A DNA stretch of 20,080 nucleotides from a virus. The notes below the pieces were generated by a model. That model made no database searches. It worked only from the letters and a program-made list of their open reading frames with translations, and was not told where the DNA came from. The translations under genes and the position numbers were made by a program. Positions 1,728-19,855 of this stretch are shown one piece after another. Within the stretch, counting starts at the first letter, position 1. Every line of letters begins with the position of its first letter. The stretch covers positions 1 through 20,080 of the IMG/VR virus record IMGVR_UViG_3300031999_000250; one strand, written 5' to 3'.

Positions 1728-1905
1728 ACTTTCCTTCTTTCTCGAAACGCTCGCGCATGGCGAGCAACTTGCGGAGCGCGGATCGATGGCTCTGCGTGAG
1801 CATCGTGGAGTGCTTGGAAACGTCTTGGTGCACGAGGTTGAGTGCGGACAAGAGCGCGCGCACCTCAGGGCCTGTGAAGCTATTGCTTAGTCTCGGTTTC
1901 TGCAT
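1642..1905 (-). CDS. Unknown 87-aa protein overlapping its downstream neighbour
   Basis: The first 60 residues look like a genuine helical protein (EVRALLSALNLVHQDVSKHS, then MRERFEKEGKYDP). The last 29 codons lie over the next gene in another frame and read as unstructured Thr/Ser/Ala sequence. The ATG at 1905 has AAGG about 6 nt upstream and overlaps the upstream stop by 26 nt. The Lys-Glu-Gly-Lys codons near residue 58 double as the ribosome binding site of the next gene. Family not recognised. Confidence 0.6.
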   Translation of the reverse strand: MQKPRLSNSFTGPEVRALLSALNLVHQDVSKHSTMLTQSHRSALRKLLAMRERFEKEGKYDPSTTSTENPHTYDQGAVLAHDAGAVR

Positions 1906-2065
1906 GCGCTACCTTGACCTTGTGAAGGATGTGCTCCAGCGCGAGGCGTGCGCCAAGAGGCAGGAATATTGGGCGTGTGCGACGACCGTTGGACTCAGTA
2001 ACAGAAGCACAGACACGGCCAGTGCGATCTGTGAACACGTGGATGTCGAAGGACCTCACTGTCAC
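1880..2065 (-). CDS. Unknown 61-aa protein downstream of thyX
   Basis: A small protein with an N-terminal beta-type pattern (SFDIHVFTDRTGRVCASV) and a helical, His/Lys-rich C-terminus. The start is a GTG at 2065 that overlaps the thyX TGA as GTGA, with a near-perfect AAGGAGG 4 nt upstream embedded in the last thyX codons. A second GTG two codons later is possible. It is translationally coupled to thyX. No recognised domain. Confidence 0.65.
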   Translation of the reverse strand: MTVRSFDIHVFTDRTGRVCASVTESNGRRTRPIFLPLGARLALEHILHKVKVAHAETETKQ

Positions 2066-2760
2066 AGCGCCTCCTTGAAGATCTGCACTGTGCATGGCGC
2101 TAGCGGTTGGATCAGCTCAAGAATGGCTTTCGCGTACACACGGATCTCGTACTGAGCGTGGCTGTGCAATCGCTGCCTCAGGAAGTGCATCAAGTTGTGC
2201 AGGTCCGTTGTCCACATCCACCGGGTGTAGATGTTGAGCGGTAGCACCATGCGCGCAAGCTCCCGAGCAAGGCCGCGCTGCAGGAGCGCTTCGTAGGTCT
2301 TGTAGCTAGCAAGGGAGAGGGCCAAGATCTGCTGCTGAAGAAGAAGCCCAGTCTCGGAGTCCAACACCGCGCCCGACCCTTGCTTGTTATCCTTCGCCTG
2401 CGCTTGCATGCGGTCGAGCTCCGGCACGTAGAACTCGCTCGGCAGCACGCCGTACCGCGCCGACATCTCATTGAAGGAGCCGCTTCTGTACCTGATCCAC
2501 TGTCGCGCGATGAAGATGGGCAGCTTCACGTCGAACGTGAACCTTACGGTCTCGAAAGGAGTCGTGTGCGCGTTGGCGAGCAGGTAGCGCAGGAGTTTCT
2601 CGTTCTCACTCGTTGGCCTGACTTCGTTGCCTGAGATCGACACACGTGCAGCGTCCACCACCCGCTGGTCGCCAAGGCCCCACAGGGATGGCGCGCCTGT
2701 GGGTTCACTGGCCGGCATCGAATCCACCAGCTCGATGTGTCCGTGATCCAGTATTTTCAT
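2062..2760 (-). CDS. thyX: Flavin-dependent thymidylate synthase ThyX
   Basis: ThyX makes dTMP from dUMP using methylene-tetrahydrofolate, FAD and NADPH. The 232-aa length is normal for the family. Visible signatures are HTTPFE at 66-71 and the ThyX motif RQWIRYRSGSFNEMSARY at 86-103. The classical RHRx7S core reads RYR here (Y91), a substitution I think occurs in other ThyX proteins. The C-terminal nucleotide/flavin-binding region HNLMHFLRQR...AQYEIR is at 188-206. The start is ATG 2760, overlapping the upstream stop as ATGA; a TTG three codons earlier is less likely. A second, truncated copy of its first 13 or so codons lies upstream at 2920-2988. It supplies dTTP for phage replication. Confidence 0.95.
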   Translation of the reverse strand: MKILDHGHIELVDSMPASEPTGAPSLWGLGDQRVVDAARVSISGNEVRPTSENEKLLRYLLANAHTTPFETVRFTFDVKLPIFIARQWIRYRSGSFNEMSARYGVLPSEFYVPELDRMQAQAKDNKQGSGAVLDSETGLLLQQQILALSLASYKTYEALLQRGLARELARMVLPLNIYTRWMWTTDLHNLMHFLRQRLHSHAQYEIRVYAKAILELIQPLAPCTVQIFKEAL

Positions 2761-2930
2761 GGCTTCCAATCCTCCGGGCGATAGCCACCCTTGCTCAGCC
2801 AGCTGTCGAGCGTTTCCCAGGCGTCGATGACATCTGCCATTGCGGCGTAGGGATCATTGCTTCTGAGCAGCTGCGTCGGAAGCTCGGCGATTGCGGCTCG
2901 CATGTTTTCCAGCGCCTTGTCAGGATCCAT
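2757..2930 (-). CDS. Small protein, paralogue of the 3188-3451 product
   Basis: A 57-aa helical protein from ATG 2930, with GGAGG 6 nt upstream. It begins MDPDKALENMRAAIAEL and ends WLSKGGYRPEDWKP. The gene at 3188-3451 encodes MDPNESLEELRAAIAVF and WMSKGGFRPDDWKP, so the two are clear paralogues that differ by an internal insertion and a C-terminal extension. The stop overlaps the thyX ATG (ATGA). The in-frame methionine 11 codons earlier is rejected because it has no ribosome binding site and overlies the thyX-like fragment. Function unknown; the coupling to thyX may reflect gene order only. Confidence 0.7.
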   Translation of the reverse strand: MDPDKALENMRAAIAELPTQLLRSNDPYAAMADVIDAWETLDSWLSKGGYRPEDWKP

Positions 2931-2988
2931 GCTGATCCTCCGCGAGCGTGTCCACAAGTTCAACGTGCCCGTGATCTAGTATTTTCAT
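2920..2988 (-). pseudogene. Duplicated, truncated 5' end of thyX
   Basis: A 22-codon frame starts with ATG at 2988 and reads MKILDHGHVELVDTLAEDQ. The real ThyX starts MKILDHGHIELVDSMPASE. The similarity continues upstream: both copies have GGAAGCCATGAAAATACT at the start, where the preceding gene ends Lys-Pro-stop. The frame then runs into TGA just inside the next small gene. This is best explained by a duplication that included a thyX start junction, followed by loss of the rest of the copy. Whether the 22-residue peptide is translated is unknown. Confidence 0.75.
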
Positions 2989-3149
2989 GGCTTCCCCGTC
3001 GGGGCCTTCGGGGCCTTCCGGGCCTTTCGCGTCGCACGCGGGCCCTTGCCGCTAACTTTCTTCGCGCTCGGGGCAAACTCGGGCGCGGTAGTCGCTTGAA
3101 GCAAGTCTCCGATTGCGACGGCATCGGGAGCGGATTGGATAGTTGTCAT
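2985..3149 (-). CDS. 54-aa protein with a Lys/Ala/Pro-rich basic tail
   Basis: The frame reads MTTIQSAPDAVAIGDLLQAT and finishes with a strongly basic, Pro-rich tail containing RKARKAPKAP and TGKP, like a histone H1 or RecA-type nucleic-acid-binding tail. A GAAAGGAAA element lies about 8 to 10 nt before the ATG at 3149. The stop overlaps the ATG of the thyX-like fragment as ATGA. Three tandem 9-bp units at 3001-3027 encode the Lys-Ala-Pro repeats. A DNA-binding role is only an inference from charge. Confidence 0.6.
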   Translation of the reverse strand: MTTIQSAPDAVAIGDLLQATTAPEFAPSAKKVSGKGPRATRKARKAPKAPTGKP

Positions 3150-3187
3150 GGGCGGCATTTCCTTTCGGGTTAGGGTTCAGAACGTCT

Positions 3188-3451
3188 CTAGGTTCGCTGC
3201 GTTGATTCGTCGCCATCTAAGGCTAGTAGAGCAGCGACGATTTCAGACGGCTTCCAGTCGTCAGGACGAAACCCGCCCTTGCTCATCCACTGATCTAGCG
3301 CGTCCCAGGCTGTGACAACATCAGCGCCTGCCTCTGCGATGAGGATCAAGCGCGCAAGGACTGTTGAGCTATCACCGACAGGCGCGTAAGCGTGAGGGCG
3401 AAAGACCGCTATCGCGGCGCGGAGTTCTTCCAGTGATTCATTAGGGTCCAA
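3188..3451 (-). CDS. Small protein, longer paralogue of the 2757-2930 product
   Basis: An 87-aa helical protein using a TTG start at 3451, supported by GGAGG 6 nt upstream, the same spacing as in its paralogue. Residues 1 to 17 and a central stretch (AWDALDQWMSKGGFRPDDWKP) match the paralogue closely. Between them is extra sequence (a VLARLILIAEAGAD helix), and after DWKP a 19-residue extension. It is the first gene after the terminator at 3468-3497, so it probably begins a separate transcript or depends on read-through. Function unknown. Confidence 0.7.
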   Translation of the reverse strand: MDPNESLEELRAAIAVFRPHAYAPVGDSSTVLARLILIAEAGADVVTAWDALDQWMSKGGFRPDDWKPSEIVAALLALDGDESTQRT

Positions 3452-3467
3452 TCGATTCCTCCAACGT

Positions 3468-3497
3468 AAAAAGCCTACGCTTCTCAGCGTAAGCCTT
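3468..3497 (-). terminator. Rho-independent terminator after the modification operon
   Basis: On the minus strand, AAGGCTTACGC pairs with GCGTAGGCTT around a TGAGAA loop, giving about 10 bp with two G-T pairs, followed directly by TTTTT (AAAAA at 3468-3472 on the plus strand). It lies about 27 nt after the ParB-like stop codon and before the TTG-started gene at 3451. It would end transcripts coming from the right. Confidence 0.75.
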
Positions 3498-3523
3498 GTG
3501 CGGGATGCTTCTGTTTAGCGCCC

Positions 3524-4306
3524 TTACTCGACAGCTATGCTGCTCTCAAGCTCGACGTACCACTTCAGCGCAGCCAGCACTGCCTGCCCGTCTGTGTCAG
3601 CGCCAGACTTGCGCTTGGCCTCACCCAACAGCCGGCGCGTGGCCGGCGTGTTCACCAACTCGACGCGCAACGGGCGCCCTTGCCAGAACTCGCCGTCTTC
3701 AGCCGCCTCTGCGCCTGCGGGCGACCCGTCCTGGTTCACCAACGCCATGGCTGCCAGTGCGTCGTCCATTGTCTTGCTGAGGTCGAGCAAGAACGCTGGG
3801 TCGAGCGCCACGTGCGAGGCAACGATATCGACACCCATCTTCGCCACCAACTCGCGCACGAAGTCGACGAACACGGGCCCGTTGGGGCTCCCTGTGACGT
3901 TGAACGACAGCATGGCAAGGTCTACCTGCCCTGCGTCCGTTCCGGGGTCCAGCAAGATGATGGGGACGCGCGGGGCGCCCTTCTCCTTGAGCACCTGCAC
4001 ACGGTGGTGGCCGTCGACGATGCCGAACTTCCCTGGCTTCAGCTCCTCCGCGAGCACGAAGCTCTTGAAGCCCATGCTGTCCACGCTCGACCGCAGCGCT
4101 GTCAGTTCCTCGGGGGACATGGCGCGAGGGTTGTCTCGGCGCGGGTTGATGTCCGCTGGCTTCACGAAGCCGATGCGCATCGGTCCGATCCTCACGATCC
4201 CGTGCTTATCGAACGCCAGCGGTTTTGAGATGTCGACTGCCAGATCAGCCAGCGTGTTCACTGGCTTCTTTGAGGAGGTGCCCGCCGGCGAGCCCTGGGA
4301 TTTCAT
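3524..4306 (-). CDS. ParB/sulfiredoxin-like domain protein next to dpdA
   Basis: About 260 aa from ATG 4306. After a low-complexity start, residues 37 to 117 form a ParB-N/Srx-type domain: a strand pattern (IVRIGPMRIGFVKP), INPRRDNPR at 53-61, then GIVDGHHRVQVLKEKG at 95-110, corresponding to the conserved G-x-HR box of ParB-like proteins. The C-terminal half is helical and unassigned. The start is uncertain: ATG 4306 overlaps dpdA by 62 nt with a poor ribosome binding site, while GTG 4262 would overlap by only 18 nt. It is the last gene before the terminator. ParB-fold proteins may act as nucleases or NTP-dependent DNA-binding switches. DndB/DpdB-type partners of DNA modification are loosely comparable, but I see no proof of the same role. 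Confidence 0.8.
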   Translation of the reverse strand: MKSQGSPAGTSSKKPVNTLADLAVDISKPLAFDKHGIVRIGPMRIGFVKPADINPRRDNPRAMSPEELTALRSSVDSMGFKSFVLAEELKPGKFGIVDGHHRVQVLKEKGAPRVPIILLDPGTDAGQVDLAMLSFNVTGSPNGPVFVDFVRELVAKMGVDIVASHVALDPAFLLDLSKTMDDALAAMALVNQDGSPAGAEAAEDGEFWQGRPLRVELVNTPATRRLLGEAKRKSGADTDGQAVLAALKWYVELESSIAVE

Positions 4307-6582: not shown

Positions 6583-7716
6583 TTATGGAAGCTCCCACCA
6601 GTTCTTGATTTCCCTGCCGTACATGAGATCGAGAATGCGGTCAGCGGTGCCGCTATGCGTACGCGCAAGCCAGCCGACGTCAGGAGTTGCGTCCCCGTCA
6701 ACAAGTGCGACCAGCTTGTCTACGGCGTCCTCAACCGACCACGGCACGAACAGATGATCGCGGTCGTTCCGCAGTGCCTCAGGAAATGACCTGAACGCAG
6801 GCGCGAGCGTGTGCGTGGAGAACGTGCTGGCTTCGAGGGCCGTGTAGGACACGAAGTCTTGCTTTGCCGTGTTGAGCTGAACGCGGGAAGACGCGAGATG
6901 GCCGTAGTACTCAGGCTTGGTGCACTTGCGCTTGATCAAGACGGCGCCCTGCTCTTCCAAACCGCGGAGACGCGCGAGGGCAGTCGCGTCCGTGGACTTG
7001 ACCTCCGAGCTGCCGGTGCACACGACGAACTCGATGTCGCGGCCCAGCGCTCTCGTGCGCTCCACAACGTCCATGAAAAAGTGCGGCTGCTTCTCGGCGT
7101 CAAGCCGCGAGCTGTAGATCACCTTCCGCCCTCTGCTACGCCAAGGCACAGGCGCACCTTCGACAGTGCTCAGCACGTCCTGCGAGTCGTAGACATGCCC
7201 AACAACTCGAATGTCCCCTTCGAGGCAGGCGGCGCGCATCATCTCCTTGTGGGCGGTTGAGGAGCAGAGCACGGTGACCGACTCGGCGTGGTGCACCATC
7301 TGCTCGTAGTGCCGCATCCAACGCCGCATGTTGAACGTGAAGTCGTCGGGATCAACGCTCTGCGCGTGATTCCTGACGTAGATCCGAGGCCGGAACTGCC
7401 GAGGCAGTTGCTCCAAGATGTACGGGATCGCTGAGAAGCCTGGCGTGAACATGTCATCCAGGTAGATCACGTCGTTCTGCGCGAGGTGCTGTTCTTGCAG
7501 CGCCTTCACAAGGGCGGCGATCTGCGTGGCACCAAAGTAGCACCGACCGTACGCGTCAAGCACGGAGCCTGTATTGACCTCATCTGTGAGCGTCGTTCCT
7601 TGGATCACCCGAACCACAGCGCGTGGCGAGCGCGACAGCCCCGAAATCGTCCAACGCTGGAGCTGCTCAGTGTAGCGCTCCCGGTATCCCTCAAGGGGCA
7701 GGTAGTGGATCTTCAT
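6583..7716 (-). CDS. GT-B fold glycosyltransferase (GT4-like)
   Basis: 377 aa with the two-domain pattern of GT-B enzymes. The C-terminal donor-binding half is clear: VIYSSRLDAEKQPHFFMDVV at 199-218 is the family's G/S-RLDxEKQP strand-turn. Residues 290 to 315 (a SYTALEAS stretch, then FPEAL) correspond to the sugar-nucleotide-binding E-x7-E region, although the first acidic residue is not obvious. The N-terminal half is the acceptor domain and is not recognisable. There is no signal peptide or membrane helix, so it works in the cytoplasm. It starts at ATG 7716, overlapping the queD-like stop. In this operon DNA, or a 7-deazaguanine precursor, is a plausible acceptor; a role in capsule or surface glycans is less likely here. 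Confidence 0.85.
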   Translation of the reverse strand: MKIHYLPLEGYRERYTEQLQRWTISGLSRSPRAVVRVIQGTTLTDEVNTGSVLDAYGRCYFGATQIAALVKALQEQHLAQNDVIYLDDMFTPGFSAIPYILEQLPRQFRPRIYVRNHAQSVDPDDFTFNMRRWMRHYEQMVHHAESVTVLCSSTAHKEMMRAACLEGDIRVVGHVYDSQDVLSTVEGAPVPWRSRGRKVIYSSRLDAEKQPHFFMDVVERTRALGRDIEFVVCTGSSEVKSTDATALARLRGLEEQGAVLIKRKCTKPEYYGHLASSRVQLNTAKQDFVSYTALEASTFSTHTLAPAFRSFPEALRNDRDHLFVPWSVEDAVDKLVALVDGDATPDVGWLARTHSGTADRILDLMYGREIKNWWELP

Positions 7717-8144: not shown

Positions 8145-8729
8145 TCACCGTGAACAGCGATCGATGAGCTGCATCACTTCCGCGCGCGCTTCGGCACGCT
8201 CACGGAACGTGCCGCGCATCTCGCTCGTGCCCATCTTCGCGCCGGGCTTACGCACGCCTCGGCACACCATACAGGAGTGCTCGGCCTCGATCACCACTGC
8301 CACGCCGCGCGGGTTGAGGTGCTCGGCAAGCGCATCCGCGATCTGCGTCGTCATCCTCTCCTGCAGCTGCAACCGCCTCGCGTACGCCTCCACGACGCGC
8401 GGGATCTTCGACAGGCCCACGACACGATACCCTTCCGTACCTTTGCCTGGCAGGTACGCCACTGCCGCGCGCCCTGAGAACGGGAGCAAGTGGTGCTCGC
8501 ACATCGAGATGAAGGAGATCCCGGCCACAACGATCACCTGGTCATACTGACCGCTATCGAACGTAACGGACAGGATCTTGGCAACATCCTCATCGTAGCC
8601 ACTCGTCATCTCGCGCATCGCCTTCACAACACGTGCTGGCGTGTCTATGAGCCCTTCGCGCTCAGGATCTTCTCCCATAACTAGGAGCAGCTCACGGACG
8701 CCTTGCTTGGCCTTCTCGTGGTGGGTCAT
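8145..8729 (-). CDS. folE: GTP cyclohydrolase I, type FolE
   Basis: 194 aa. It converts GTP to dihydroneopterin triphosphate, the first step towards 7-deazaguanine (and folate). Zinc ligands are C77 and H80 in MCEHHLLPF and C153 in HSCMVCRGV. The substrate and fold motifs [20 protein letters not shown] (103-122) and [13 protein letters not shown] (122-134) are intact. The start is ATG 8729, overlapping the queE stop (ATGA); upstream in-frame sequence lies over queE and is rejected. It sits with queE, the queD-like gene and dpdA, so its product most likely feeds DNA modification. Confidence 0.95.
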
Positions 8730-9424
8730 GGAAGACCCAGCACGCGGTGAGTTTGCACGGATAGTGACCACGCAGGGTGCTCCATGCACCACTGGGCTGC
8801 GTTCGTCATGTTCACCTTGTCCAACACCGAGACGCCGACTCCGCACTGCGACGCTGCAGGCTGCACGTAGAGCTTGGTGCCGGGGCGCACCCACGCCGCG
8901 TACTGAAGGGGATCGTAGTTCGGGTATACCACCTTCAGCTCGCTCACAGCGTGCGGATCAAGCAGGAGCTTGTCTGCAGCATGCTTCGGCGAGCACGTGA
9001 TCCACAACCGCGCATGATCGAGCTGGCGCGCCGTAAGCTGCGCCAGCTCGGGGCCCATCGCGACTGTGCCATTCGTCTCGATCGCGACTTGCAGGAAATC
9101 CAGCATCTTTGAAGCGATGTCGTGGTCCAGCTGAAGCAGCGGCTCGCCGCCTGTGATCACAGCTAGCCGCCCGCCTTTTTCTGCATACGCGGAAACTACC
9201 GCCACGATCTCGTCGGCAGACATTTTCAGGCGGGGCACGAAGTCGGTGTCGCAGAACAGCGGGCACTGAGCTTGATTGCGCTTCGCATCGCGCTGCCGGT
9301 CTTCAGCACGACCGCTCCACAGGTTACAACCTGCCAGCCTGATGAACAGCGCAGGAGTGCCTGCCCACGATCCTTCCCCTTGGATCGTCTCGAAGCACTC
9401 TGCGAGTGCGTAAGTCTTCCCCAT
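8726..9424 (-). CDS. queE: 7-carboxy-7-deazaguanine synthase QueE (radical SAM)
   Basis: 232 aa. QueE turns 6-carboxytetrahydropterin into 7-carboxy-7-deazaguanine using a [4Fe-4S] cluster and SAM. The family opening ETIQGEG (12-18) and the long GCNLWSGR...[10 protein letters not shown] insert give cluster ligands C33, C54 and C58. This is the extended, NLWSGR-type spacing rather than Cx3Cx2C. TGGEPLLQ at 91-98 is the SAM-binding glycine motif. The ATG has AAGGAGG 8 nt upstream. It is separated from the MazG-like gene by 63 nt, a possible promoter position, and its stop overlaps folE. Confidence 0.93.
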
Positions 9425-9487: not shown

Positions 9488-9991
9488 TCAGGGAATCGGC
9501 CGCCAGTTTCGCGGCTTCACTTCCTCACGCCACACCCTGAACGCGAGGGCAACGACACCCTCACCAAACGATCTCGCGCGATCGTCCAAGACGCTGAACA
9601 GCGCTCCTAGCTCGTTGCTGAGGTTACGACGATGCGTCTCTTGATCTCCGCGAATACCTTGCTCCTGCTTGAGCTGGCAGTGCGCAACCCTGCCCAGCGC
9701 CGAGGACATCGCCCTTGCGTGCCCTTGCGTGCCGCTGATCGAGAACGGCCTTCGGTGCTGCCAAACCTCGACAACGTCCAGGCCTAAGTGCGTGCAGAAG
9801 TTGGTAGCGAAGATCAACATGTCCGCCAACGCATCCAGCTGAAGCGATGTGGTCTCCGCATCCCACAACTCGCCTAGCTCCTCCACCATGCCGAGGAGCG
9901 GCTGATAAGTCCGCTGGTCAGGGAAGTTATACCGAGTCCAGATCGCAGCCTCTGCCTGCATTGTCTTGAGCATTTCTAGATCATCCATCAT
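9488..9991 (-). CDS. MazG-like nucleotide pyrophosphohydrolase-type protein
   Basis: 167 aa from ATG 9991, overlapping the Rad50-like stop (ATGA). The N-terminal half has the all-alpha NTP pyrophosphohydrolase signature: GMVEELGELWDAE (the EExxE metal site) followed by LDALADMLIFATNFC (the ExxD-type second site). Such enzymes hydrolyse non-canonical or excess NTPs. The C-terminal half (NELGALFSVL, then VWREEVKPRNW) resembles the closing helix of MazG-type phage proteins. A perfect 10-bp tandem repeat lies at 9711-9730 between the halves, without breaking the frame. Placed just before queE, it may tune nucleotide pools for replication or modification. Confidence 0.8.
   Translation of the reverse strand: MMDDLEMLKTMQAEAAIWTRYNFPDQRTYQPLLGMVEELGELWDAETTSLQLDALADMLIFATNFCTHLGLDVVEVWQHRRPFSISGTQGHARAMSSALGRVAHCQLKQEQGIRGDQETHRRNLSNELGALFSVLDDRARSFGEGVVALAFRVWREEVKPRNWRPIP
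9711..9730. repeat. Perfect 10-bp tandem repeat in the MazG-like gene
   Basis: GCCCTTGCGT occurs twice without a gap at 9711-9720 and 9721-9730. The unit is not a multiple of three, so gain or loss of one copy would shift the frame between the two helical halves of the MazG-like protein. As it stands the frame is open to the end. Confidence 0.8.
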
Positions 9992-11640
9992 CCCACCACT
10001 TTTCCGCCTTCCACAACCCAACAAGCCGCAGCCAGTGCTTCCACACGCGGCCAGGAAGTCGCGTGCGTGATCAACACGACGCAACACTGCTCCGCCATCT
10101 CCTCCAGAACCTCCAGCACTGAGTCGCGCCCTTCAGCGTCCAACGTGTCGAAGCACTCGTCGAAGAACAGCGTGCCAGGGGCGCGGCTGCTCGATCCTGC
10201 CGCTACCTCCGCCAATGCGAGCAGGAGTGCCACGTCGATCCGTCGCTTCTCGCCGCCAGAGGTCGCGGCGTAACCTTGCCCGTTGCCTGCGCCTTCGATC
10301 TCCAGAGAGATCGCGTCCTTCACCGCACCCTTCGCGTTCTCCGTGTAAGGCTTCAGCGAGAGCGTCAGCGCGTAATCTCCGATTAGGGCGAGGCGGCTCA
10401 GCCAGACGTTCGCCACTGCCTCGATGCCGGCCAAGGCCTGGTGCAGCATGTGGCTCCGCACACCGCTCACGCTCAGCACGTCGTCCGCCGCCTGCAGCTC
10501 CGCCAGCGCTTCAGCCACGCTAGATTCTTCCGCTCGTGCTGTGTCTAGTTCCTCCTGCGCGTCTTCCAAGCGCTCGGCGACAACGGTGCGGCGGCTTGTT
10601 ACTCCCGCCATGGCTGCCTCCCACGCCCGCAATTCCGCGAGGGCCTCCCCAGCGCGCTCCGCTGCCGCCCCAGCCACCTCGCGCGCCTGCAGCGCGCTGT
10701 CGTGCGCACGCTGGGCGTGGGCCAGCAACTTGTCTTGCTCCGCGAGGGCTTGCACGGCCGCCCTGTGCGCCCCTACAGCGCTGTCCAACCCCCCAGGGGG
10801 CAGTTGTGCCCCGCACGTGCTGCACCGCCCCTGCTGGGCCCGGCTGAGCTGCGCAGTAGCCCTCGTAACGACCTGCTCACAGCGTGCGCGCTCCACGCGC
10901 GCGTCCGCCACGTGCGCCATCGCAGCGCGTACCGCTTTGGCCTTGGGGTCGACGGCCCCTTGCACCGCGGCCAGCTTCTCGCGCACTGCAGGGAGCGTGG
11001 CGAGGGTGACGGGCTTGCCTGCGTGCTCGACTGCCTCAGGTGTAGTCTCAGCAATCAGGCGGTCTTCTAGCCCGCGCACCCGCTCCTCCAGCAACCGGGC
11101 CTGGCCACGGGCCGTGTCCAGCTCCTGCCGCTTCGCCCGGCAGTCCTTACGGCACGCCTCACTCGCCTCGTCGAACACCAGCAACCCGAGCAACGACTCG
11201 ATGAGCCGCTTACGCTCGCTGTCCGTGGCCGTTGAGAAGTGCGCCGCGTCCTGCGAGCTGAACACGCTGACGCGCGACCACACGGCGTGCTCGCCAATCA
11301 CGCGCTCAAGCTCTTCCTGCGCCTTCCGTGCGTTCTCGAACTTCTCAGGCGCTTCGCCAGCGCGGTGCCACGTCGCCTTGCCCTTCGCAGAACGGCTGAC
11401 AACGAGGTCGTCTACCTCAACCTGCAGCGCCCCTTTAGGGGACGCCCACAGCGAGAGGCCTCGTTGCTGCCCTCGACCGCGGAGCGGCTTGTTCCACAGC
11501 CCGACACTCACTGCTTCGCTGATCGCGCTCTTCCCTGCGCCGTTAGCGCCCCGCAGTAGAACGATGCCGCGCTCAGGGAACACCGCCTTCGTGCTGACGT
11601 GCGACATGAAGTCGCGCAGCTCGACAGACTTGATCCTCAC
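9988..11640 (-). CDS. Rad50/SbcC-like recombination ATPase
   Basis: 550 aa, compact compared with cellular SbcC and like phage gp46-type subunits. Walker A GANGAGKS is at 31-38, coiled-coil arms run from about 160 to 270 and 290 to 390, and a zinc hook RCSTCGAQL (C273, C276) sits in the middle. The ABC signature TSGGEKRR is at 460-467 and Walker B LFFDECFDTLD at 491-501. With the Mre11-like partner encoded two genes upstream, it would form a DNA-end-processing complex for recombination-dependent replication or host DNA breakdown. The start is GTG 11640, overlapping the exonuclease stop as GTGA. Confidence 0.93.
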   Translation of the reverse strand: MRIKSVELRDFMSHVSTKAVFPERGIVLLRGANGAGKSAISEAVSVGLWNKPLRGRGQQRGLSLWASPKGALQVEVDDLVVSRSAKGKATWHRAGEAPEKFENARKAQEELERVIGEHAVWSRVSVFSSQDAAHFSTATDSERKRLIESLLGLLVFDEASEACRKDCRAKRQELDTARGQARLLEERVRGLEDRLIAETTPEAVEHAGKPVTLATLPAVREKLAAVQGAVDPKAKAVRAAMAHVADARVERARCEQVVTRATAQLSRAQQGRCSTCGAQLPPGGLDSAVGAHRAAVQALAEQDKLLAHAQRAHDSALQAREVAGAAAERAGEALAELRAWEAAMAGVTSRRTVVAERLEDAQEELDTARAEESSVAEALAELQAADDVLSVSGVRSHMLHQALAGIEAVANVWLSRLALIGDYALTLSLKPYTENAKGAVKDAISLEIEGAGNGQGYAATSGGEKRRIDVALLLALAEVAAGSSSRAPGTLFFDECFDTLDAEGRDSVLEVLEEMAEQCCVVLITHATSWPRVEALAAACWVVEGGKVVG

Positions 11641-12227
11641 AACGGCACTGAGTTGTTGAAGAACACGTTGCGCGCAAACCAGCGAAGGTCGGTGAGCGAC
11701 ATGTTGCAGTCGCTCAGCGCACGGTGCGCGTCCTTACTCTCTGCAGACTGCGGTTCGCCGACCCACGCGCGGTACAGCATACGCAAGCCACTCACGTCGA
11801 TCATGCGATGGTGCAGGTACTTGCACGCCACCGGGCAGTGCTGCTCCAAGAACGCCCGGTCGAAGTGAATCGAGTTCCCCACGAGCACAATGCTGCGAAG
11901 CGCTGGGCTGACACTGGCAAAGTGCGCCGTCAGCGCGCGATCCAGCCAAGGGTGCGCGTCATCCAGTAGCTGGTTCGTCGATGCGAGGAAGGACCGGTCA
12001 GCGTCGAGCGCTGCCAAGAGCCCGCTCCTGGTGTGCATCTCCTGCACGAACGCGTCCATGTAGCCAGGCGACCCGTGCGTCACCAACCACGATACCGCGC
12101 TGTGCGTCTGCAGATCCTTACGGCCTACGTGGATCGCAGCGCACTCCAAGACCCGGCACTGCGACGGGACAAGCCCTTCTGTTTCCAGATCCAACACGAC
12201 CCACTGCTGATTGTCGACTTCACTCAT
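11637..12227 (-). CDS. DEDDh 3'-5' exonuclease, oligoribonuclease-like
   Basis: 196 aa. The exonuclease acidic residues are visible: VVLDLETEGLVP (D13, E15), VGNSIHFDRAFL (D123) and HRALSDCNMSL (H168, D173), so DEDDh type. EMHTRSGL at 63-70 and the VGNSIHFDRAFLEQH...MIDVSGL order are typical of oligoribonuclease (Orn) rather than of DnaQ. Orn degrades 2- to 5-nt RNA to mononucleotides. In the phage it may recycle nucleotides released by the Mre11/Rad50 pair, whose genes flank it. The ATG has AGGAGG 5 nt upstream, inside the end of the Mre11-like gene. Confidence 0.88.
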   Translation of the reverse strand: MSEVDNQQWVVLDLETEGLVPSQCRVLECAAIHVGRKDLQTHSAVSWLVTHGSPGYMDAFVQEMHTRSGLLAALDADRSFLASTNQLLDDAHPWLDRALTAHFASVSPALRSIVLVGNSIHFDRAFLEQHCPVACKYLHHRMIDVSGLRMLYRAWVGEPQSAESKDAHRALSDCNMSLTDLRWFARNVFFNNSVPL

Positions 12228-13338
12228 TCAGCCCTCCTACTGCCTTCAAGTACCCTTGCACTCTTCGACTCACTGCTCCGCGATCAACGGCACCAGGCAC
12301 CGGCATCTTGGCGATATACGCCTCCAGAGCTTCCCGCATGTTGCTCGCTTGCGAGGTGGCCTTCGCCGCCGCTCGCGCTTGCTTTACTGCCGACACCTTA
12401 CTCGGCACCAGTGTGTAGTCCTTGATCCCGGCTTGCACCCCTGGCCCTTTCAACCATGCCCGAGCTGCAGGCAGCTCCGTAGGCTCCGCCTCCATGTGCG
12501 CGTAGATGCAGGTGCCGTGGCCAGCGAGCTGATGCGCGAGGTCAGAACCCCACACGAGCTTCACGAAGCGTGGGCCGGAGATCTTCACTGCCTTGACCTG
12601 CTTACTCGGATCAACACCTGTGTCGATCAGTAACACGCGCCCGAAAGTTGGTCCGAGGTTGTCGAAGCCTGTAGGCGTCAGCGCGCCCACCTGCTCGATG
12701 CGCGATTGCTTGGATGTCCACGATCCGTGGTCATGCCAGTTCCCAACACACAGGAGGCGCGTGCCGGCGCGATCCATCATCTCACGCAGGCTCTCCCAAT
12801 CGTGCGCGTCCGCGCCGGCGTGCCTGAGGAACTCCGGCGTCTTGGAGTCGATAATGCCGAAGTGCGCGAACACCGTGTGCGGCTTGTGCATAGCGAGGAG
12901 CTGCGGCAGCCACTCCCCCACAGCGCTCTGGTTGAACGGGGCGAAGAGAATGCGGTGCCCATCAACCTCGATCACGCCAGGTACTTCGTGGACGACGATC
13001 TCCCCGCCAGCTGTCCGGTGCGCGTTGAGGGGGCCAAGGGCGTGGTCGCCCTCTGACATGCTCCGCTGGTCGTGGTTGCCTACGATCAAGTGAACGTCGC
13101 CATTGAACGGCTGCAAGGCGCTGATCACTGCCGCCTCGACTTGCGGCGTGGGCGTGTCGGTATCGAACAGGTCGCCATTCACCACGAAGTACTCGCACTC
13201 ATGCTTGTTCGCCGCATGCACGGCGCGGTGGAGAGACTGCAACGAAGCGGTGCACCGCTCGTTGATCCCCGAAACGTGCGCACCGCCGAACTTCGGGAAG
13301 TTGCCTACGTGCGGGTCTGAAACGGCTGCGATCCTCAT
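12220..13338 (-). CDS. Mre11/SbcD-like nuclease
   Basis: 372 aa. A calcineurin-type metallophosphoesterase with the five expected motifs: SDPHVG at 7-12, NGDLFD at 54-59, VGNHDQ at 86-91, FAHFG at 157-161 and GNWHDHG at 199-205 (in the position of GHxH). The C-terminal third, with a Lys/Ala-rich region and KMPVPGAVDRG, is presumably the Rad50-binding part. It is coupled at both ends: the start overlaps the zinc-finger gene (ATGA) and the stop overlaps the exonuclease by 8 nt. It works with the Rad50-like ATPase on DNA ends. Confidence 0.92.
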   Translation of the reverse strand: MRIAAVSDPHVGNFPKFGGAHVSGINERCTASLQSLHRAVHAANKHECEYFVVNGDLFDTDTPTPQVEAAVISALQPFNGDVHLIVGNHDQRSMSEGDHALGPLNAHRTAGGEIVVHEVPGVIEVDGHRILFAPFNQSAVGEWLPQLLAMHKPHTVFAHFGIIDSKTPEFLRHAGADAHDWESLREMMDRAGTRLLCVGNWHDHGSWTSKQSRIEQVGALTPTGFDNLGPTFGRVLLIDTGVDPSKQVKAVKISGPRFVKLVWGSDLAHQLAGHGTCIYAHMEAEPTELPAARAWLKGPGVQAGIKDYTLVPSKVSAVKQARAAAKATSQASNMREALEAYIAKMPVPGAVDRGAVSRRVQGYLKAVGGLNE

Positions 13339-13721: not shown

Positions 13722-13894
13722 GCTTTTCCTCCCCTCACGACTGTCTTGGCACCGCGTGCCCGCACTTCCATTATGATCGACGGGTGCGCTGCGAAATCGG
13801 CGCGTATGAATGCCTTGGTACCACTCGGCTCGTCGATCACGGCGATCGTCAACGCGCTAAGTGGCGGCAAGGCATACGGCACTTCAGTCATCAT
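13718..13894 (-). CDS. Unknown 58-aa protein after recA
   Basis: A small protein starting MMTEVPYALPPLSALTIAV and ending in a basic RGAKTVVRGGKA tail. Two adjacent ATG codons (13894, 13891) overlap the end of recA by 8 to 11 nt; the sequence does not decide between them. Longer in-frame sequence lies over recA and is rejected. Function unknown. Confidence 0.65.
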   Translation of the reverse strand: MMTEVPYALPPLSALTIAVIDEPSGTKAFIRADFAAHPSIIMEVRARGAKTVVRGGKA

Positions 13895-14978
13895 CTGAGT
13901 CGGCCTCAGTTGCATCGTCTGCCCCAGCCTCTCTGCCAATCGAACCGACCACGTTGAAGTCCCAGTCAAGCGCTTCGAGCGCGTCGACGTACGTAGGCTT
14001 GTCCTTGGCCGCAACGAGCTTGAGGCGCTTCGCGTGCTCGATCGTAGTCCACTGGTTGTTGTACCCTGTCGCGTAGTCGAACCGCACCCGCGCCTTATGG
14101 AAGGGCGCGGTGAGGCGGTTCTTCACGGCCATGATCGTGACGACCTTCCCCACGTGCTCGTCGTCGGCGTTCTTGATCGCCTTGCCACCGAAAAACTGCA
14201 GCCTTACTGAGCTGTAGAAGCGCGGCCCGTTGCCGCCCGGCGTCGTGATGTTGCTGGCGAACTTGGAGCCGCCGATCATGTGCCGGATCTGGTTTACCAT
14301 GAACAAGTGCGCCCGGTGCTCTTGCAGCAGTCGCGGCATGTCTCGAAGCTCATCGCTCAAGACGCGCGCCTCTGCTGCGACGCCTTTCTCGCCTGCGTCC
14401 AACGCAAGGCCTGCTTTGGTGTTGAGACTCGCGATAGAGTCGAGCCCGAGGAGCAGTGGGCCGCGCTGAGGATCGTGGCTTCGCAAGGCAGCTTTCAACA
14501 TCTCGATCGCTTCTTCGAGGTGCGCAGGCTGCCCGATGACCAGATCAGAGATCTCGATACCGTGCGTCTCGGCACGTTCTTCGTCGAAGCTATGCTCAGC
14601 GTCCAGTAGCACTGCCACACCGCCGATCTGCTGCACCGCGCCGAGGCACCTGTACAGTAAGGCTGTCTTGCCGCTGGACTCCGCGCCGAAAACCTCAGAC
14701 ATGCGGCCGACTGGAAAGCCGCCTCGGCCGATCACATAGTTGTCGAGCGCGTCGATGCCAGTTGGGATGAACTCCTTGATCTGCGCCAAGCCGTGCTGCT
14801 CCTCTGCAACGGTTGTGATCCGCGATCCAAACGTCTTCGCGTGCTTCTTCTGCAGCACGGCAGCAAGCGCGGCACCCTTCCCCGTCGTACCGGGAGTCTT
14901 GGCCGGCTTGGCGCGCCGAACGGCCTTCTTCGCAGGCGCCCTTCGCGCTGCCTTCTTTTTCTTCTTCGTCGCAGCCAT
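13884..14978 (-). CDS. recA: RecA/UvsX-like recombinase
   Basis: 364 aa. It performs ATP-dependent strand exchange on ssDNA. Walker A GAESSGKT is at 98-105, the Walker B strand LLLGLDSI at 175-182 (D180), and the MVNQIRHMIGG loop at 227-237 contains the N-Q pair that senses ATP and DNA. A Lys/Ala/Arg-rich N-terminal extension (residues 1-30) and an acidic C-terminus (DSDDD) are both visible; the first is longer than in cellular RecA. The ATG has GGAGG 7 nt upstream. The gene follows a 134-nt gap with a hairpin, so it may have its own promoter. It lies with the gp32-like, Mre11 and Rad50 genes in a recombination module. Confidence 0.93.
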   Translation of the reverse strand: MAATKKKKKAARRAPAKKAVRRAKPAKTPGTTGKGAALAAVLQKKHAKTFGSRITTVAEEQHGLAQIKEFIPTGIDALDNYVIGRGGFPVGRMSEVFGAESSGKTALLYRCLGAVQQIGGVAVLLDAEHSFDEERAETHGIEISDLVIGQPAHLEEAIEMLKAALRSHDPQRGPLLLGLDSIASLNTKAGLALDAGEKGVAAEARVLSDELRDMPRLLQEHRAHLFMVNQIRHMIGGSKFASNITTPGGNGPRFYSSVRLQFFGGKAIKNADDEHVGKVVTIMAVKNRLTAPFHKARVRFDYATGYNNQWTTIEHAKRLKLVAAKDKPTYVDALEALDWDFNVVGSIGREAGADDATEADSDDD

Positions 14979-15968: not shown

Positions 15969-16430
15969 CTACTCGTCTTCGTCTTCGTCCTCCACAGCCG
16001 CGTCGTCGCGGGTTCCGCCGCCTTCTGCCTGCAGCTCGATGCGCACGTGGGCGCCGAGCGACACCAGCATATCCTTCTTCGTCCGCAGCGCTTCCAGGTC
16101 GCCGGCGAGGCGCGACTTCTGCCCTTCTGCCGCACTGTACGCACGGCACACGTCCTGGTAGATGCTGTTCGAGAGGATCGAGTTCCTGATGTAGCCTTCG
16201 CTTGGCTTTTTATCCGCGTCGCTGCAAACCTCCATGTAGAGCATGGCGTAGGTCTCGTCTCGGTACTGCTTCGTCTCCAGCACAGCCTGCAGCGCCTCTG
16301 AGTATTCCTCTGTCGCTCGCGCGATCTGTGGCGACATGCGGATGTATTCGTTCTTCACGTCCTCAGGAACGATGTTGAAGGAAGGGCGCGGTCGAGGTGT
16401 GCCTTTTGCGGTTGCTGCTTTTTTGGTCAT
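15969..16430 (-). CDS. Helical protein in the position of a UvsY-type recombination mediator
   Basis: 153 aa from ATG 16430, which overlaps the polA stop (ATGA) and has GGAGGAG 5 nt upstream. After a basic N-terminus (TKKAATAKG) it is almost entirely helical (RATEEYSEALQAVLETKQ, later QKSRLAGDLEALRTKKDML) and ends in a very acidic tail. Size, helical content, the RTKKDML segment and the place between polymerase, gp32-like SSB and RecA fit a UvsY-like mediator that loads recombinase on SSB-coated DNA. This is inference from pattern and context; no diagnostic residue proves it. Confidence 0.7.
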   Translation of the reverse strand: MTKKAATAKGTPRPRPSFNIVPEDVKNEYIRMSPQIARATEEYSEALQAVLETKQYRDETYAMLYMEVCSDADKKPSEGYIRNSILSNSIYQDVCRAYSAAEGQKSRLAGDLEALRTKKDMLVSLGAHVRIELQAEGGGTRDDAAVEDEDEDE

Positions 16431-19400
16431 TCTTTCTCCTCCGACATGTCTGTGAGACTGCCCCAGCTCGGGCCCCACTTCACGTCTACGCCCAGCGGCA
16501 CTCCGTTGGAGTTATGGCTGAGCATGATGCGCTTGAGCTGATAGCGCGCTTCATACGCCGCCGATCGATGCACGTTCAGCATGATCGAGTCGTGTACGGT
16601 GCAGACGAGCTGCCCAGGCACCGCGTCGCCCACTAGCCACTCCACGATTGGGGACAGGCTGGCTGTCGCGAACTCCGCCGCCGTGCCCTGCACACTCGTG
16701 TTGCCAGCGGTGCGCTCGTAGTGCGCTCGCATCGCTTGGTCTTGATCTAGGATGCGCCAGATGGGGCGCACCCGAGCGCGGCCGCCGTCCCACCACGTCC
16801 ACGCCTCACCAGTCCTGCGCGACTCCGTGACGCAGGCCTGCATGAAACGCTCTAGCTTCTTGTACCTGCCCCAGATCATCTTGTTGATCTGCACGATGGT
16901 GCCTACCGACACACCAAACTCGCGCGCGATCCCTTTGTCTGTCTTGCCGTACAGTCTGCCGAAGATGACCGTCTTGATCTGCGAACGATACGGGTCTCGT
17001 TCGTCCTTCGTCATCTTGTCCCACTTGGCGCGCGGCAGCTTCCAGGCAGCTTCGCAGCACAAAGTGGCGCCGTTGGTGTGGATGTCGATGCCGTTCTTGA
17101 AGTCGGCGATCATCACATCGTCGCCAGCGAGCATCGCTGCGATACGCAGCTCCAGCTGGCTGAAGTCTGCCTCGATCAATACATGACTAGGCGAGGAAGC
17201 GATGAAGCAGTCGCGCGCCATCTTACCCAGCACGCTGCCCTTTGCGCGAGGTATGTTCTGAAGGTTTGGATCGCGGCAGTTATGCGAAAAAATGCCCTCT
17301 GTCTCGTAGCTTTCGTCTTCATCGATGGTTAGGTCGAAGACCTCAAGATTTCCGCGATAGTGGATCTCTTCAATCGTAATGAATCCGGTTCTCTGGTCTG
17401 CCGTACGTGAATCTGCCTGTGCCCCGCTGCCGTACATAACGCTAGGTTGTCGATCGAGTTGTTCGTTGGGTCCTCGTCGATACGGTGGACAACAAAGCCC
17501 TTCGGGACCGACTTCAGCCCGAGCGCTTCCGCCACTTTGCGGCTGTGCAGAAACACCCGCTTGCCGTCCCAGAGGCAAGTCAGATAACCGTAGCCGTCCT
17601 CGCACACACCTTTCCAGTTGTGGTGCGCTTCGCCTGTCTTGCCGTACATAGGGCTGCGCCAGCTTGTTTTCGATGCTGAGTACCGAGCGACCTTCAGTAG
17701 CCGGTATTCCTCTGCCGGTAAGTAGTGGCTCAGAACGTGGCGCACGTTGTGAAACGTCGTGCCTGCGTCCTCTGCGATCTGTTCTACCGTCATCAACGCG
17801 CGCAAGTCGCGATAAGCACGCAGAACTGCCTTCTGGTTCTGTGTATTGCCAACCCACGCCTTTGACACCGACATCAATAACCTCTGCGACGGTTACCCAC
17901 GCACCGTCTTCACGCAACAACCGGTGAGACGGCGTACACGTCAAGACGTTCCCATTACTCATCTTCAGATCATACGTGAGACAACTGCCTTGATCTATTG
18001 TAGCGAGAACTCGCCGCCACCTGTTCTTGTGCGTCCAAACATTATCGCCTACGCGAACTTCTGCCATAGGTAGCACACCGCGGTCAGTCCGGCACATTGT
18101 CCAAGACGCCACACAAGACAATCTGCCAGTTCCAGCCCCGTCTATGAGGAACGAAGGATGCACGCGGCCATCGTCTCGGATGTGCCTCAACAGACCGTGC
18201 GCGTAGGTACCGCTGAACTTCGAGAGCTTCCGAAACTCCAACAGGTGGTTCACGTACGGGTGCTCACCTCGGAGCGTCTCCAACGCGTCCTCGTCTGTGC
18301 TCTGTGCCCCGCTGTCCGTCTCCTTCACAGAGCGCAGGCCGAGATCCTCGAACAGATACTTGGCGAGTTGCTTGGGCGACGCCGGGTTGATGTCCGTGTA
18401 CTGACGCATCTGCGCCTGCGTCTCTCCGATGCGCTGGTCGCAGTAGGCAGCGAGGTTCTGCACTGCAGCCTTGTCCACCGGAAAGCCCCAGTGCTCGATG
18501 TACCGCACGGCTTTGTTCGCATCCTTCACGACCAAGTTCCACGCACGAGAGATCGTAGGGTGGTCGAACAGGCGTGGCATCTGATCGTGCGCCACTTCCC
18601 GCGTGCTCCACACGTCGCGGGCGTTGTATCGATACAGCGTCCTGTGATCCATGAAACCGTAAGCAAACGCCTCGGTGTCGTGGCCGGCGCGGATCTTTGT
18701 CAGCACCTCAGTCGGCACGCTGAACTTCGGTGGTGCGGTCTTCCTGCGCTTCCCTTTCGGGGTGAACTCGGGCAGCGGGTTGGCTTGCCGATTTAGCTCT
18801 TTCTTGATCGCACTGAGCGCAGCCTTCGCCTCCAACTTGTGCCCGCCCATGCCCACTGTCTCTGCGATCGTAGACAAGCGCGCATCTGCTTCAGGATCAA
18901 GGAGCTTACGACCGAGACGCGTGTCATACATGATGTTCGGGATCTCTGCACCAAGATCGAGCATCACAGCACGATCATCATACTTACCGTTCTGCGTGAC
19001 CGTGGCAAGCTTTGGGCTCCTGAACAAAGTCGCGAGGATCTCGCGTACGCCCTTGTCCTGCATCGCTTCCTTCGTCCAGGTGAACGACCTCGTAGCCGTG
19101 TCACCGAGTAGCGTGACCGTCTCGATGCGGAAAGCCTTGTCGTGCATCAGATCCGTGGTCTCTACGTCGTAGGCGTACCACTGATGTTTGCTCAGCGAGC
19201 TGGCAGCGACGCGCGCGTGATCTTCGGTCTCAACCAAGACCGTGTACACGTCCTTGAACCACGGCGTGTGCGACGCAGCGAGCGCCCACTGCAAATCTTC
19301 CTCGAACGCCCGGGTCGAGAACGGGTTGCGAAACGCGATCGCTGGGTTGGGTAGGGTGTAGACAGGGATTGGGTCACCGTCTGCGTTCTTCGCCCAACCG

Positions 19401-19855
19401 TAAGCCTTGCGAACTACCTGCGCAGACACGCGGCGGCCGAGCACAGAGAGCGCTGCTTCGCTCCCGAGGCACAGGATGCGTTGAGGGCTTTGCTCCAGCG
19501 CAGCCGCCGTGTAAACACGGCACGCGGCGATCTGCTTATCCGAGATCTTCTTTGCGCCCGTTGCGCACCGGATCGCGTAGTCGTAGCGCGTTGCGCCGCG
19601 CCAATGCTTCTCCAGCATGCGCCGAAACTGCAAGCCGTACTGCCCGTAGAACACCTTGCCGGCCGTGTCCTCCAGCCGACTCGGCTTCTCGCCGATCACC
19701 AGCACACCGCCGGCTTGCCCCTCTGGCGCCATGCACACGTAGCGAACATTCTCGTGCAGCACGCACCGCGCGCACGCAAGGTCGCGCTGTTCTGGCTCTG
19801 CAGCATTCGCTGCCGCCGTTGGCAGCCCCTTCGGGTACAACAGAAGCTTCCGCAT
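16427..19855 (-). CDS. polA: Family A DNA polymerase with UDG-like domain and intein
   Basis: 1142-residue precursor; 863 residues after removal of the intein (581-859). Residues 25 to 195 form a uracil-DNA-glycosylase-like domain: C28 and C31, VIGEKPSRLED (53-63), C97 and C112 spaced as in family 4 UDG iron-sulfur proteins, and LPNPAIAFRNP (168-178), where the catalytic-site His is Asn. A 3'-5' exonuclease follows: YDVETT (D230, E232), NGKYD (D293), Y410-x3-D414. The polymerase domain has motif A ADFSQLELR (896-904), motif B R957/K961/F965/Y969 and motif C VHDS (1087-1090, Ser where Glu is usual). F965 aligns with E. coli F762. There is no 5'-nuclease domain. AAGGGG lies 5 nt before the ATG. 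This is the phage replicative polymerase. Confidence 0.95.
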   Translation of the reverse strand: MRKLLLYPKGLPTAAANAAEPEQRDLACARCVLHENVRYVCMAPEGQAGGVLVIGEKPSRLEDTAGKVFYGQYGLQFRRMLEKHWRGATRYDYAIRCATGAKKISDKQIAACRVYTAAALEQSPQRILCLGSEAALSVLGRRVSAQVVRKAYGWAKNADGDPIPVYTLPNPAIAFRNPFSTRAFEEDLQWALAASHTPWFKDVYTVLVETEDHARVAASSLSKHQWYAYDVETTDLMHDKAFRIETVTLLGDTATRSFTWTKEAMQDKGVREILATLFRSPKLATVTQNGKYDDRAVMLDLGAEIPNIMYDTRLGRKLLDPEADARLSTIAETVGMGGHKLEAKAALSAIKKELNRQANPLPEFTPKGKRRKTAPPKFSVPTEVLTKIRAGHDTEAFAYGFMDHRTLYRYNARDVWSTREVAHDQMPRLFDHPTISRAWNLVVKDANKAVRYIEHWGFPVDKAAVQNLAAYCDQRIGETQAQMRQYTDINPASPKQLAKYLFEDLGLRSVKETDSGAQSTDEDALETLRGEHPYVNHLLEFRKLSKFSGTYAHGLLRHIRDDGRVHPSFLIDGAGTGRLSCVASWTMCRTDRGVLPMAEVRVGDNVWTHKNRWRRVLATIDQGSCLTYDLKMSNGNVLTCTPSHRLLREDGAWVTVAEVIDVGVKGVGWQYTEPEGSSACLSRLARVDDGRTDRRGRRHDVSQRAPRSEPLLTGRGIPATEGRSVLSIENKLAQPYVRQDRRSAPQLERCVRGRLRLSDLPLGRQAGVSAQPQSGGSARAEVGPEGLCCPPYRRGPNEQLDRQPSVMYGSGAQADSRTADQRTGFITIEEIHYRGNLEVFDLTIDEDESYETEGIFSHNCRDPNLQNIPRAKGSVLGKMARDCFIASSPSHVLIEADFSQLELRIAAMLAGDDVMIADFKNGIDIHTNGATLCCEAAWKLPRAKWDKMTKDERDPYRSQIKTVIFGRLYGKTDKGIAREFGVSVGTIVQINKMIWGRYKKLERFMQACVTESRRTGEAWTWWDGGRARVRPIWRILDQDQAMRAHYERTAGNTSVQGTAAEFATASLSPIVEWLVGDAVPGQLVCTVHDSIMLNVHRSAAYEARYQLKRIMLSHNSNGVPLGVDVKWGPSWGSLTDMSEEKE
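17279..18115 (-). mobile_element. Intein in the polymerase active-site region
   Basis: A 279-residue intein interrupts the conserved TGRLS/xDPNLQNIP motif. Splicing joins GRLS580 to C860-RDPNLQNIP. Block A starts at C581 (CVASWTMCRTDRG), block B is LTCTPSH (T641, H644), block F is NLEVFDLTIDEDES (836-849) and block G is GIFSHN with H858, N859 and Cys+1. All splicing residues are intact, so it should be active. Residues of about 671 to 824 do not look like protein in this frame; they are the shadow of an HNH gene in the +1 frame. It is a mini-intein in splicing terms, probably a mobile element. Confidence 0.93.
17329..17874 (-). CDS. HNH homing endonuclease nested out of frame in the intein
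   Basis: 181 aa in the +1 frame relative to polA, entirely inside the intein. It has its own ATG with GAGG 6 nt upstream (GAGGTTATTGATG). Residues 29 to 50 (TVEQIAEDAGTTFHNVRHVL) look like a helix-turn-helix. Residues 77 to 89 (YGKTGEAHHNWKG) and the core FLHSRKVAEALGL...FVVHRIDEDPTNNSIDNLAL (108-146) are a phage HNH_3-type nuclease with H130, N138, N139 and N143. It would cut intein-free polA alleles and so spread the intein. The unusual point is that it is not fused in frame: the polA frame stays open through the same DNA. Confidence 0.9.
   Translation of the reverse strand: MSVSKAWVGNTQNQKAVLRAYRDLRALMTVEQIAEDAGTTFHNVRHVLSHYLPAEEYRLLKVARYSASKTSWRSPMYGKTGEAHHNWKGVCEDGYGYLTCLWDGKRVFLHSRKVAEALGLKSVPKGFVVHRIDEDPTNNSIDNLALCTAAGHRQIHVRQTREPDSLRLKRSTIAEILRSST

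Follow-up and report, generated by a model that had tools for sequence, protein, structure and literature searches.

Inteins are described as having an in-frame endonuclease, as lacking an endonuclease, or as being split around one. The polA locus in the window (the whole stretch of viral DNA analyzed here, 20,080 nucleotides in length) raises the question of whether a nuclease gene can instead lie out of frame within an intein whose own frame remains open. An earlier note, made without database searches, had claimed just this: an HNH gene nested in the +1 frame of an open intein with intact splicing blocks. The claim held. We consider the locus to be a homing intein with a separate, +1-nested endonuclease gene that is not fused to it, and we place the probability of this reading at ~0.85. 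The two frames and their conservation, the avoidance of stop codons, the start signals, the insertion site, and the empty alleles are seen directly in the DNA, while translation, splicing, cleavage, and homing are inferred. The features of the host gene and intein are as follows.

16427..19855, minus strand: polA gene, an uninterrupted 1142-amino acid ORF, interrupted by an intein
17279..18115, minus strand: intein of 279 amino acids, polymerase residues 581–859, inserted as GRLS/C...HN/CRDPNLQNIP
17864..18115, minus strand: N-terminal splicing domain, intein residues 1–84, with Cys1 and block B TxxH (alignment, AlphaFold, Foldseek)
17390..17863, minus strand: intein-frame linker, intein residues 85–242, a by-product reading of the HNH gene
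17279..17389, minus strand: C-terminal splicing domain, intein residues 243–279, with block F VxD..V..D.S and block G HN (alignment, pLDDT ≥90)

Without residues 581–859, the ORF at 16427–19855 is a family A DNA polymerase with N-terminal uracil-DNA glycosylase-like and 3'-5' exonuclease domains (Pfam UDG, DNA_pol_A_exo1, and DNA_pol_A, the last on both sides of the intein). The fusion of a uracil-DNA glycosylase-like domain to the N-terminus of an exonuclease-PolA polymerase (18116–19855; Pfam UDG, 3e-9) is an observation in its own right. Minus-strand neighbors at 2062–2769, 6583–7716, 8726–9424, 9988–11640, 12220–13338, and 13884–14978 have matches to ThyX (Thy1), glycosyltransferase, radical SAM, SMC/SbcC-like ATPase, metallophosphatase, and RecA.

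The intein begins with Cys1 and ends with SHN, which is followed by Cys+1. The splicing residues are kept across 15 relatives, as seen in alignments of both intein ends. Cys1 and His64 are invariant and Thr61 almost so, the penultimate His and the Asn are conserved, and the +1 residue is Cys or Ser. All elements expected of a Hint-type intein are thus present (N-terminal Cys, block B TxxH, block F, C-terminal HN, and +1 residue). The Pfam Intein_splicing match to the intein frame (1.4e-5) is under the Pfam cut-off; with the aligned intein profile, solved inteins are recovered, including gp41-1 at 3e-12. AlphaFold assigns pLDDT values of 91–96 to intein residues 1–80 and of about 90 or more to the last ~30, and the ordered part matches solved inteins in Foldseek. 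In three empty, uninvaded alleles (L133–L135), polA is continuous across the insertion site. These predictions and matches, together with the empty alleles, satisfy the expectation of a Hint fold inserted precisely and in frame into a conserved host motif. With every active-site residue present, we regard the window element as a splicing-type intein, although self-excision and ligation of the exteins are inferred from the sequence and have no biochemistry behind them.

The second ORF, 17329–17874, is shifted by +1 from the intein frame and covers polymerase residues 661–842. Its features are as follows.

17329..17874, minus strand: nested gene for a putative HNH homing endonuclease, 181 amino acids plus stop (Pfam HNH_3; PHROG 7545)
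17881..17884, minus strand: GAGG Shine-Dalgarno sequence, 6 nt ahead of the HNH ATG
17893..17895, minus strand: HNH-frame stop codon, six codons 5' of the ATG, which limits any frameshift fusion
17419..17508, minus strand: HNH_3 catalytic core, HNH residues 123–152 (Pfam)
17482..17484, minus strand: HNH codon 131, Arg in the window versus His (VHH motif) in relatives, silent in the intein frame
17329..17406, minus strand: dual-coding 3' region, HNH residues 157–181, over the start of the intein C-terminal domain

An in-frame TTG occurs one codon 5' of the ATG. The HNH frame matches Pfam HNH_3 above cut-off (5e-8) and PHROG 7545 (HNH endonuclease) at 5e-17. H130, N139, N143, H152, and H156 are invariant in HNH motif alignments, and the core expected of an HNH_3 homing endonuclease, with catalytic His and Asn, is present except that residue 131 is Arg in the window. 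Fold searches with the HNH were weak (best relevant match I-HmuI, E 0.37), and a profile search of PDB sequences with the HNH profile gave no match. Assignment of the nested HNH as a homing endonuclease rests on inference as to its cutting of the empty allele, for which the only support is the intron-encoded homolog I-PfoP3I, which targets another polA site.

The predicted structures separate the two proteins. Intein residues 85–242 (polymerase residues 665–822) are predicted to be disordered (pLDDT 33–47, with nearly all residues below 50), and Pfam detects no nuclease in this intein-frame linker. The HNH model is ordered over residues 1–162 and disordered over 163–181, and the ordered parts of intein and HNH are thereby predicted to tile along the DNA with barely any overlap. 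The element is thus not a canonical full-length intein, in which the endonuclease is part of the intein polypeptide: its linker is disordered and the HNH is in the +1 frame. The coordinates, frame, GAGG ribosome-binding site, and ATG proposed in the earlier note all held, as did its view of the linker (about 671–824) as a by-product, which agrees with the predicted disorder. It had missed the dual coding of the last ~25 HNH codons and the catalytic-site substitution in the window HNH.

Relatives were sought with the HNH protein alone as query, with no condition placed on any other frame. This identified nine polA-intein loci, and a scan with an HNH profile identified 20, all of them polA inteins in which the HNH is again +1 and the intein frame open. 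A scan with a profile of the C-terminal intein/polA junction gave 159 matches, the best 80 of which were sorted into classes: nested HNH with open intein frame (50), nested second nuclease (11), mini-inteins (6), split or unresolved (5), truncated or frameshifted (3), ordinary in-frame inteins (3, with LAGLIDADG matches in two and the third a copy), and HNH remnants (2). As the junction profile was built from nested inteins, these shares are not population frequencies. Where a full-length HNH and both intein ends occur in one ORF, the HNH is +1 in 50 of 50 loci and in frame in none, and it is absent from mini-inteins and empty alleles. Compensating indels or homologs with an in-frame fusion, either of which the earlier note would have taken as refutation, were thus not encountered. 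The 47 non-redundant IMG/VR loci carry the HNH family in an identical +1 frame and have no stop in the intein frame. In one locus (L055), an internal deletion has reduced the HNH to 58 amino acids, and the intein frame is still open. Identities among loci with this arrangement fall as low as ~40% for the HNHs and ~20% for the polymerases, which favors a stable way of expressing the nuclease separately over a transient intermediate in invasion, the two possibilities originally entertained.

Scanning of genome contigs (the genome_contigs collection) with the HNH profile yielded no confirmed relative, and the intein had no nucleotide-level match among cultured phages; the intein-N profile was too divergent for scanning the collection. 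The inteins of Pacc40 gp60 and an EBPR siphovirus, which were suspected of nesting, turned out to be ordinary in-frame LAGLIDADG-like inteins. Two of the contigs (those of L030 and L031) have a second intein in the same polA, ~100 nt 3' of the first (L061/L062, 4199–5452). Microcystis phage Mvi-JY20 has a polA mini-intein at the same PN motif (L136, 2501–about 2900), in a host gene annotated as hypothetical.

In a +1 nesting, an intein-frame stop requires a nuclease codon ending in T before AAN, AGN, or GAN. Among the 47 non-redundant loci, T occurs in 0 of 1672 such risky contexts versus 1353 of 4756 (28%) elsewhere (Fisher p ~1e-203); an earlier set of 15 loci had given 0 of 566 versus 374 of 1556. 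The loci are related and the p-values therefore overstate independence, but AT-rich and distant members nonetheless agree. Synonymous shuffling predicts 303 intein-frame stops in the 47 loci, and none is observed. For the window HNH alone, shuffled genes have a mean of 4.5 stops and leave the intein frame open with P=0.0045. The third frame contains 3–21 stops per gene, and the intein frame is open in AT-rich members as well (GC3 0.36–0.53). T-ending codons have thus been purged at positions silent in the nuclease, and both frames thereby stay open; selection on the two frames has left a very strong, simple signature.

Conservation lies in the HNH frame: mean identities over the same columns are 46% in the nuclease frame and 26% in the intein frame, and purifying selection on the HNH frame is clear across the family, a check that the earlier note had proposed. 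Synonymous conservation in the HNH is near expectation over residues 1–156 (bins 0.96–1.21) and 1.5–1.6 times expectation over residues 157–181, where the intein C-terminal domain begins. The intein linker therefore appears to be selected only for the absence of stops, with true dual coding confined to the last ~25 HNH codons.

Nesting is not limited to this HNH family. A DUF559/PD-(D/E)XK-like nuclease is nested in the +1 frame of 11 larger inteins (about 405–520 amino acids) at the same polA site (L085, L092–L094, L097, L101, L104, L105, L109, L119, and L121), with T in 0 of 615 risky contexts versus 556 of 1822 elsewhere. In L103, the DUF559 gene lies between separate intein halves (about 2709–4108), and 40 of 77 risky contexts have T, giving 40 stops; as a split intein is free of the open-frame constraint, this locus serves as a natural control. 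Three phages have inteins in the terminase gene TerL with an HNH nested in the +2 frame: Rhodobacteraceae phage LS06-2018-MD07 (L145, 2501–3310), Tetrasphaera phage TJE1 (L146, TerL 1038–3224), and Acinetobacter phage Highwayman (L147, TerL 888–3170). Their TerL coding sequences are annotated as continuous and the nested HNHs are unannotated. In Highwayman, stop avoidance is clear (P<0.001), whereas in the other two it does not reach significance (P about 0.2–0.3). A clear Shine-Dalgarno sequence is found only in LS06-2018-MD07 among the TerL members and is lacking from several DUF559 members as well. Two apparently split inteins were also noted. L106 (3563–4096) is a probable split mini-intein: two stops fall in its frame, and its C-terminal half has a possible Met start. 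The helicase intein of Pectobacterium phage Amona (L050, 3075–4700) has many stops and a LAGLIDADG endonuclease gene in another frame that overlaps both intein ends; the locus carries no annotation beyond hypothetical protein, homing endonuclease, and DNA helicase, and that of Abuela (L052) is annotated alike.

The prevalence of the +1 frame may have a codon-level cause. In this frame no protein sequence forces an intein-frame stop, because the stop starts with the third-position T of a nuclease codon and a change from NNT to NNC is always synonymous. In the +2 frame, a stop is unavoidable wherever Met precedes Ile, Met, Thr, Asn, or Lys. Such pairs are present in 42 of 44 nested HNHs and 11 of 12 DUF559 proteins and absent from all three TerL HNHs, which is weak evidence as these have few Met. 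This codon logic is a possible explanation only, as frame choice reflects few independent events.

The nested HNH has relatives in introns. Its homologs in cultured phages (35–43% identical) sit between two polA halves and several are annotated as intron-encoded; where the insertion point could be mapped, it falls in the same GRLSxxxPNLQNIP motif, only a few codons from the intein site. A relative described in the literature, I-PfoP3I of Pf-WMP3, has been shown experimentally to be a group I intron homing nickase, with its intron at a different polA site (PMC3428280). In an unrooted tree, one branch (support 99/98) divides 44 intein HNHs from 11 intron HNHs, from which a single switch of carrier between intron and intein may be inferred, in a direction that the tree does not give. 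Neither the window nor L001–L009 gave a group I intron match in Rfam at its gathering threshold, but the introns of cultured phages were equally missed, and the search hence does not discriminate. The continuous frame and Hint motifs, in our inference, speak against the window insertion being an intron. Mean identities are 43% for the HNH, 38% for the N-terminal part of the intein, and 24% for the upstream extein, with the HNH exceeding the extein in 99.7% of pairs. (Comparison was made with the upstream extein because a second intein in the C-extein of L030 distorts identities there, which were left out.) Identity of the element above that of its host suggests lateral spread, although stronger constraint on the HNH may account for part of it. 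Empty sites, HNH remnants, and mini-inteins fit a homing cycle.

The alternative that survives best is that the nested ORF in the window is a dead remnant and that the element persists here only as a splicing intein. The second His of the VHH motif is the general base of HNH enzymes, and this nearly invariant residue is lost in the window (H131R). The near-identical allele L001 (13 differences in 6749 bp) retains His131 but has P75L at another nearly invariant residue, and both substitutions are silent in the intein frame. Judged from sequence alone, the window HNH copy is likely to be catalytically inactive, although the HNH family as a whole seems active. Against the remnant reading, the ORF is full-length with its start and Shine-Dalgarno sequence intact, the HNH family is under purifying selection, and a sequencing error or a minor allele is conceivable in one assembled contig. 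We find the evidence for and against this alternative evenly balanced. The two substitutions also count against our own reading, since they raise the possibility that the nuclease is decaying in the window lineage after fixation.

A second alternative is that programmed ribosomal frameshifting joins the N-terminal part of Pol-intein to the HNH and that no free nuclease is made. The relative frame is constant, and an element resembling a Shine-Dalgarno sequence could stimulate frameshifting too. However, the aligned first residue is a start codon in 44 of 44 full-length nested HNHs (ATG in 32, GTG in 8, and TTG in 4), and predicted pairing with the anti-Shine-Dalgarno sequence is strong (median −7.1 kcal/mol versus −2.9 at upstream same-frame start-like codons; p=3e-17). 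The median distance from the HNH start to the nearest same-frame stop on its 5' side is 7 codons; such a stop lies within 0–7 codons in about half of the loci and directly touches the start in three of 44. These signals probably reflect internal initiation, with translation itself inferred, and they leave a frameshift fusion very unlikely.

A third alternative, that a genuine HNH gene overlaps an intein frame left free of stops merely by chance in GC-rich DNA, is not negligible for single GC-rich members (L007, P=0.03; L101, P=0.10), but it is all but excluded by the absence of T from every risky context, the ~303 expected stops of which none is observed, the stops in the third frame, and the open AT-rich members. 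Finally, sequencing or assembly indels that broke an ordinary in-frame intein-HNH fusion are conceivable in a single metagenomic contig but are likewise all but excluded, as the same +1 frame recurs in 47 non-redundant loci from many metagenomes with no in-frame locus, the HNH has its own start, Shine-Dalgarno sequence, and stop, and selection against stops in the intein frame is strong.

Under the preferred reading, a homing intein with a separate nested endonuclease gene, translation of polA would yield a Pol-intein-Pol precursor from which the Hint domain (the first ~84 and last ~37 intein residues) would excise itself, with the nuclease-coding stretch read in the intein frame as a disordered linker. 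The internal Shine-Dalgarno sequence and ATG on the same mRNA would direct synthesis of free HNH protein. This protein would cut or nick intein-less polA at GRLS-xDPNLQNIP, and the whole element would be copied in. Intein-frame stops would be removed through third-position changes silent in the nuclease, with both frames remaining open as a result. The window allele, with H131R, would probably be a post-homing, endonuclease-dead copy.

A bolder reading is that inteins with nested out-of-frame endonucleases are widespread and previously undescribed and have at least three origins (HNH and DUF559 in polA, zinc-finger HNH in TerL); that they are maintained by synonymous purging of stops and exchange nucleases with group I introns at the same motif; and that a stop arising in the linker provides a natural route to split inteins. 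We lean toward this combination as a whole, but only slightly. In such elements, one stretch of DNA encodes both the precursor of a host enzyme and an independent nuclease, which can be expressed apart from the polymerase and can decay without harm to splicing. Both the cycle of homing and the way in which split inteins arise become directly testable, and the TerL version in named phages (e.g., Tetrasphaera phage TJE1) makes experiments possible. Annotation pipelines hide such nested genes, which form a compact test-bed for the evolution of overlapping genes.

An out-of-frame nuclease inside a splicing intein was not found in the literature searched, which excluded bioRxiv 2025.01.02.630785 ('Actinobacteriophage Inteins... 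Non-Canonical Architecture'). The closest published case encountered, the ShiLan domain in phage DNA methylases, is an out-of-frame HNH (Arsenault, Gosselin, Gogarten 2025, PMC11855218), and the Applejack methylase is a related case (PMC12613952). As in the window, the HNH lies out of frame in a host gene that is kept open, with ShiLan homing inferred from patchy distribution. ShiLan-type elements, however, have no intein splicing domains and no detectable ribosome-binding site and are thought to remain in the host protein, whereas the window element has a complete Hint domain around the HNH and a Shine-Dalgarno sequence and thus does not qualify as ShiLan-type.

Split inteins with free-standing endonucleases have reportedly been described ('Fractured genes', Dassa et al. 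2009), and these resemble the window element in that the nuclease is encoded by a gene of its own, placed between the two halves of the intein; the nested DUF559 (PD-(D/E)XK-like) is one that we take to resemble their Vsr-like nuclease type. Unlike fractured inteins, the window intein is unbroken, and its reading frame runs on through the nuclease gene. A single continuous intein ORF is found in the window, the 50 HNH loci, and the 11 DUF559 loci, which are therefore not fractured, while L103 and Amona appear to be split versions. The group I intron HNHs of phage polA (I-PfoP3I, phiL7, PPWS1, and others) are homologous to the nested HNH (about 35–43%), have their own start, and lie within polA, mostly at the same motif. 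Their carrier is an RNA intron between polA halves that, unlike the nested intein, imposes no constraint to keep a host frame open. Lastly, canonical inteins with homing endonucleases (LAGLIDADG or in-frame HNH) share with the window element a Hint domain, a nuclease located between blocks B and F, and a homing cycle with mini-inteins and empty sites; the window element differs from them in having its nuclease outside the intein polypeptide.
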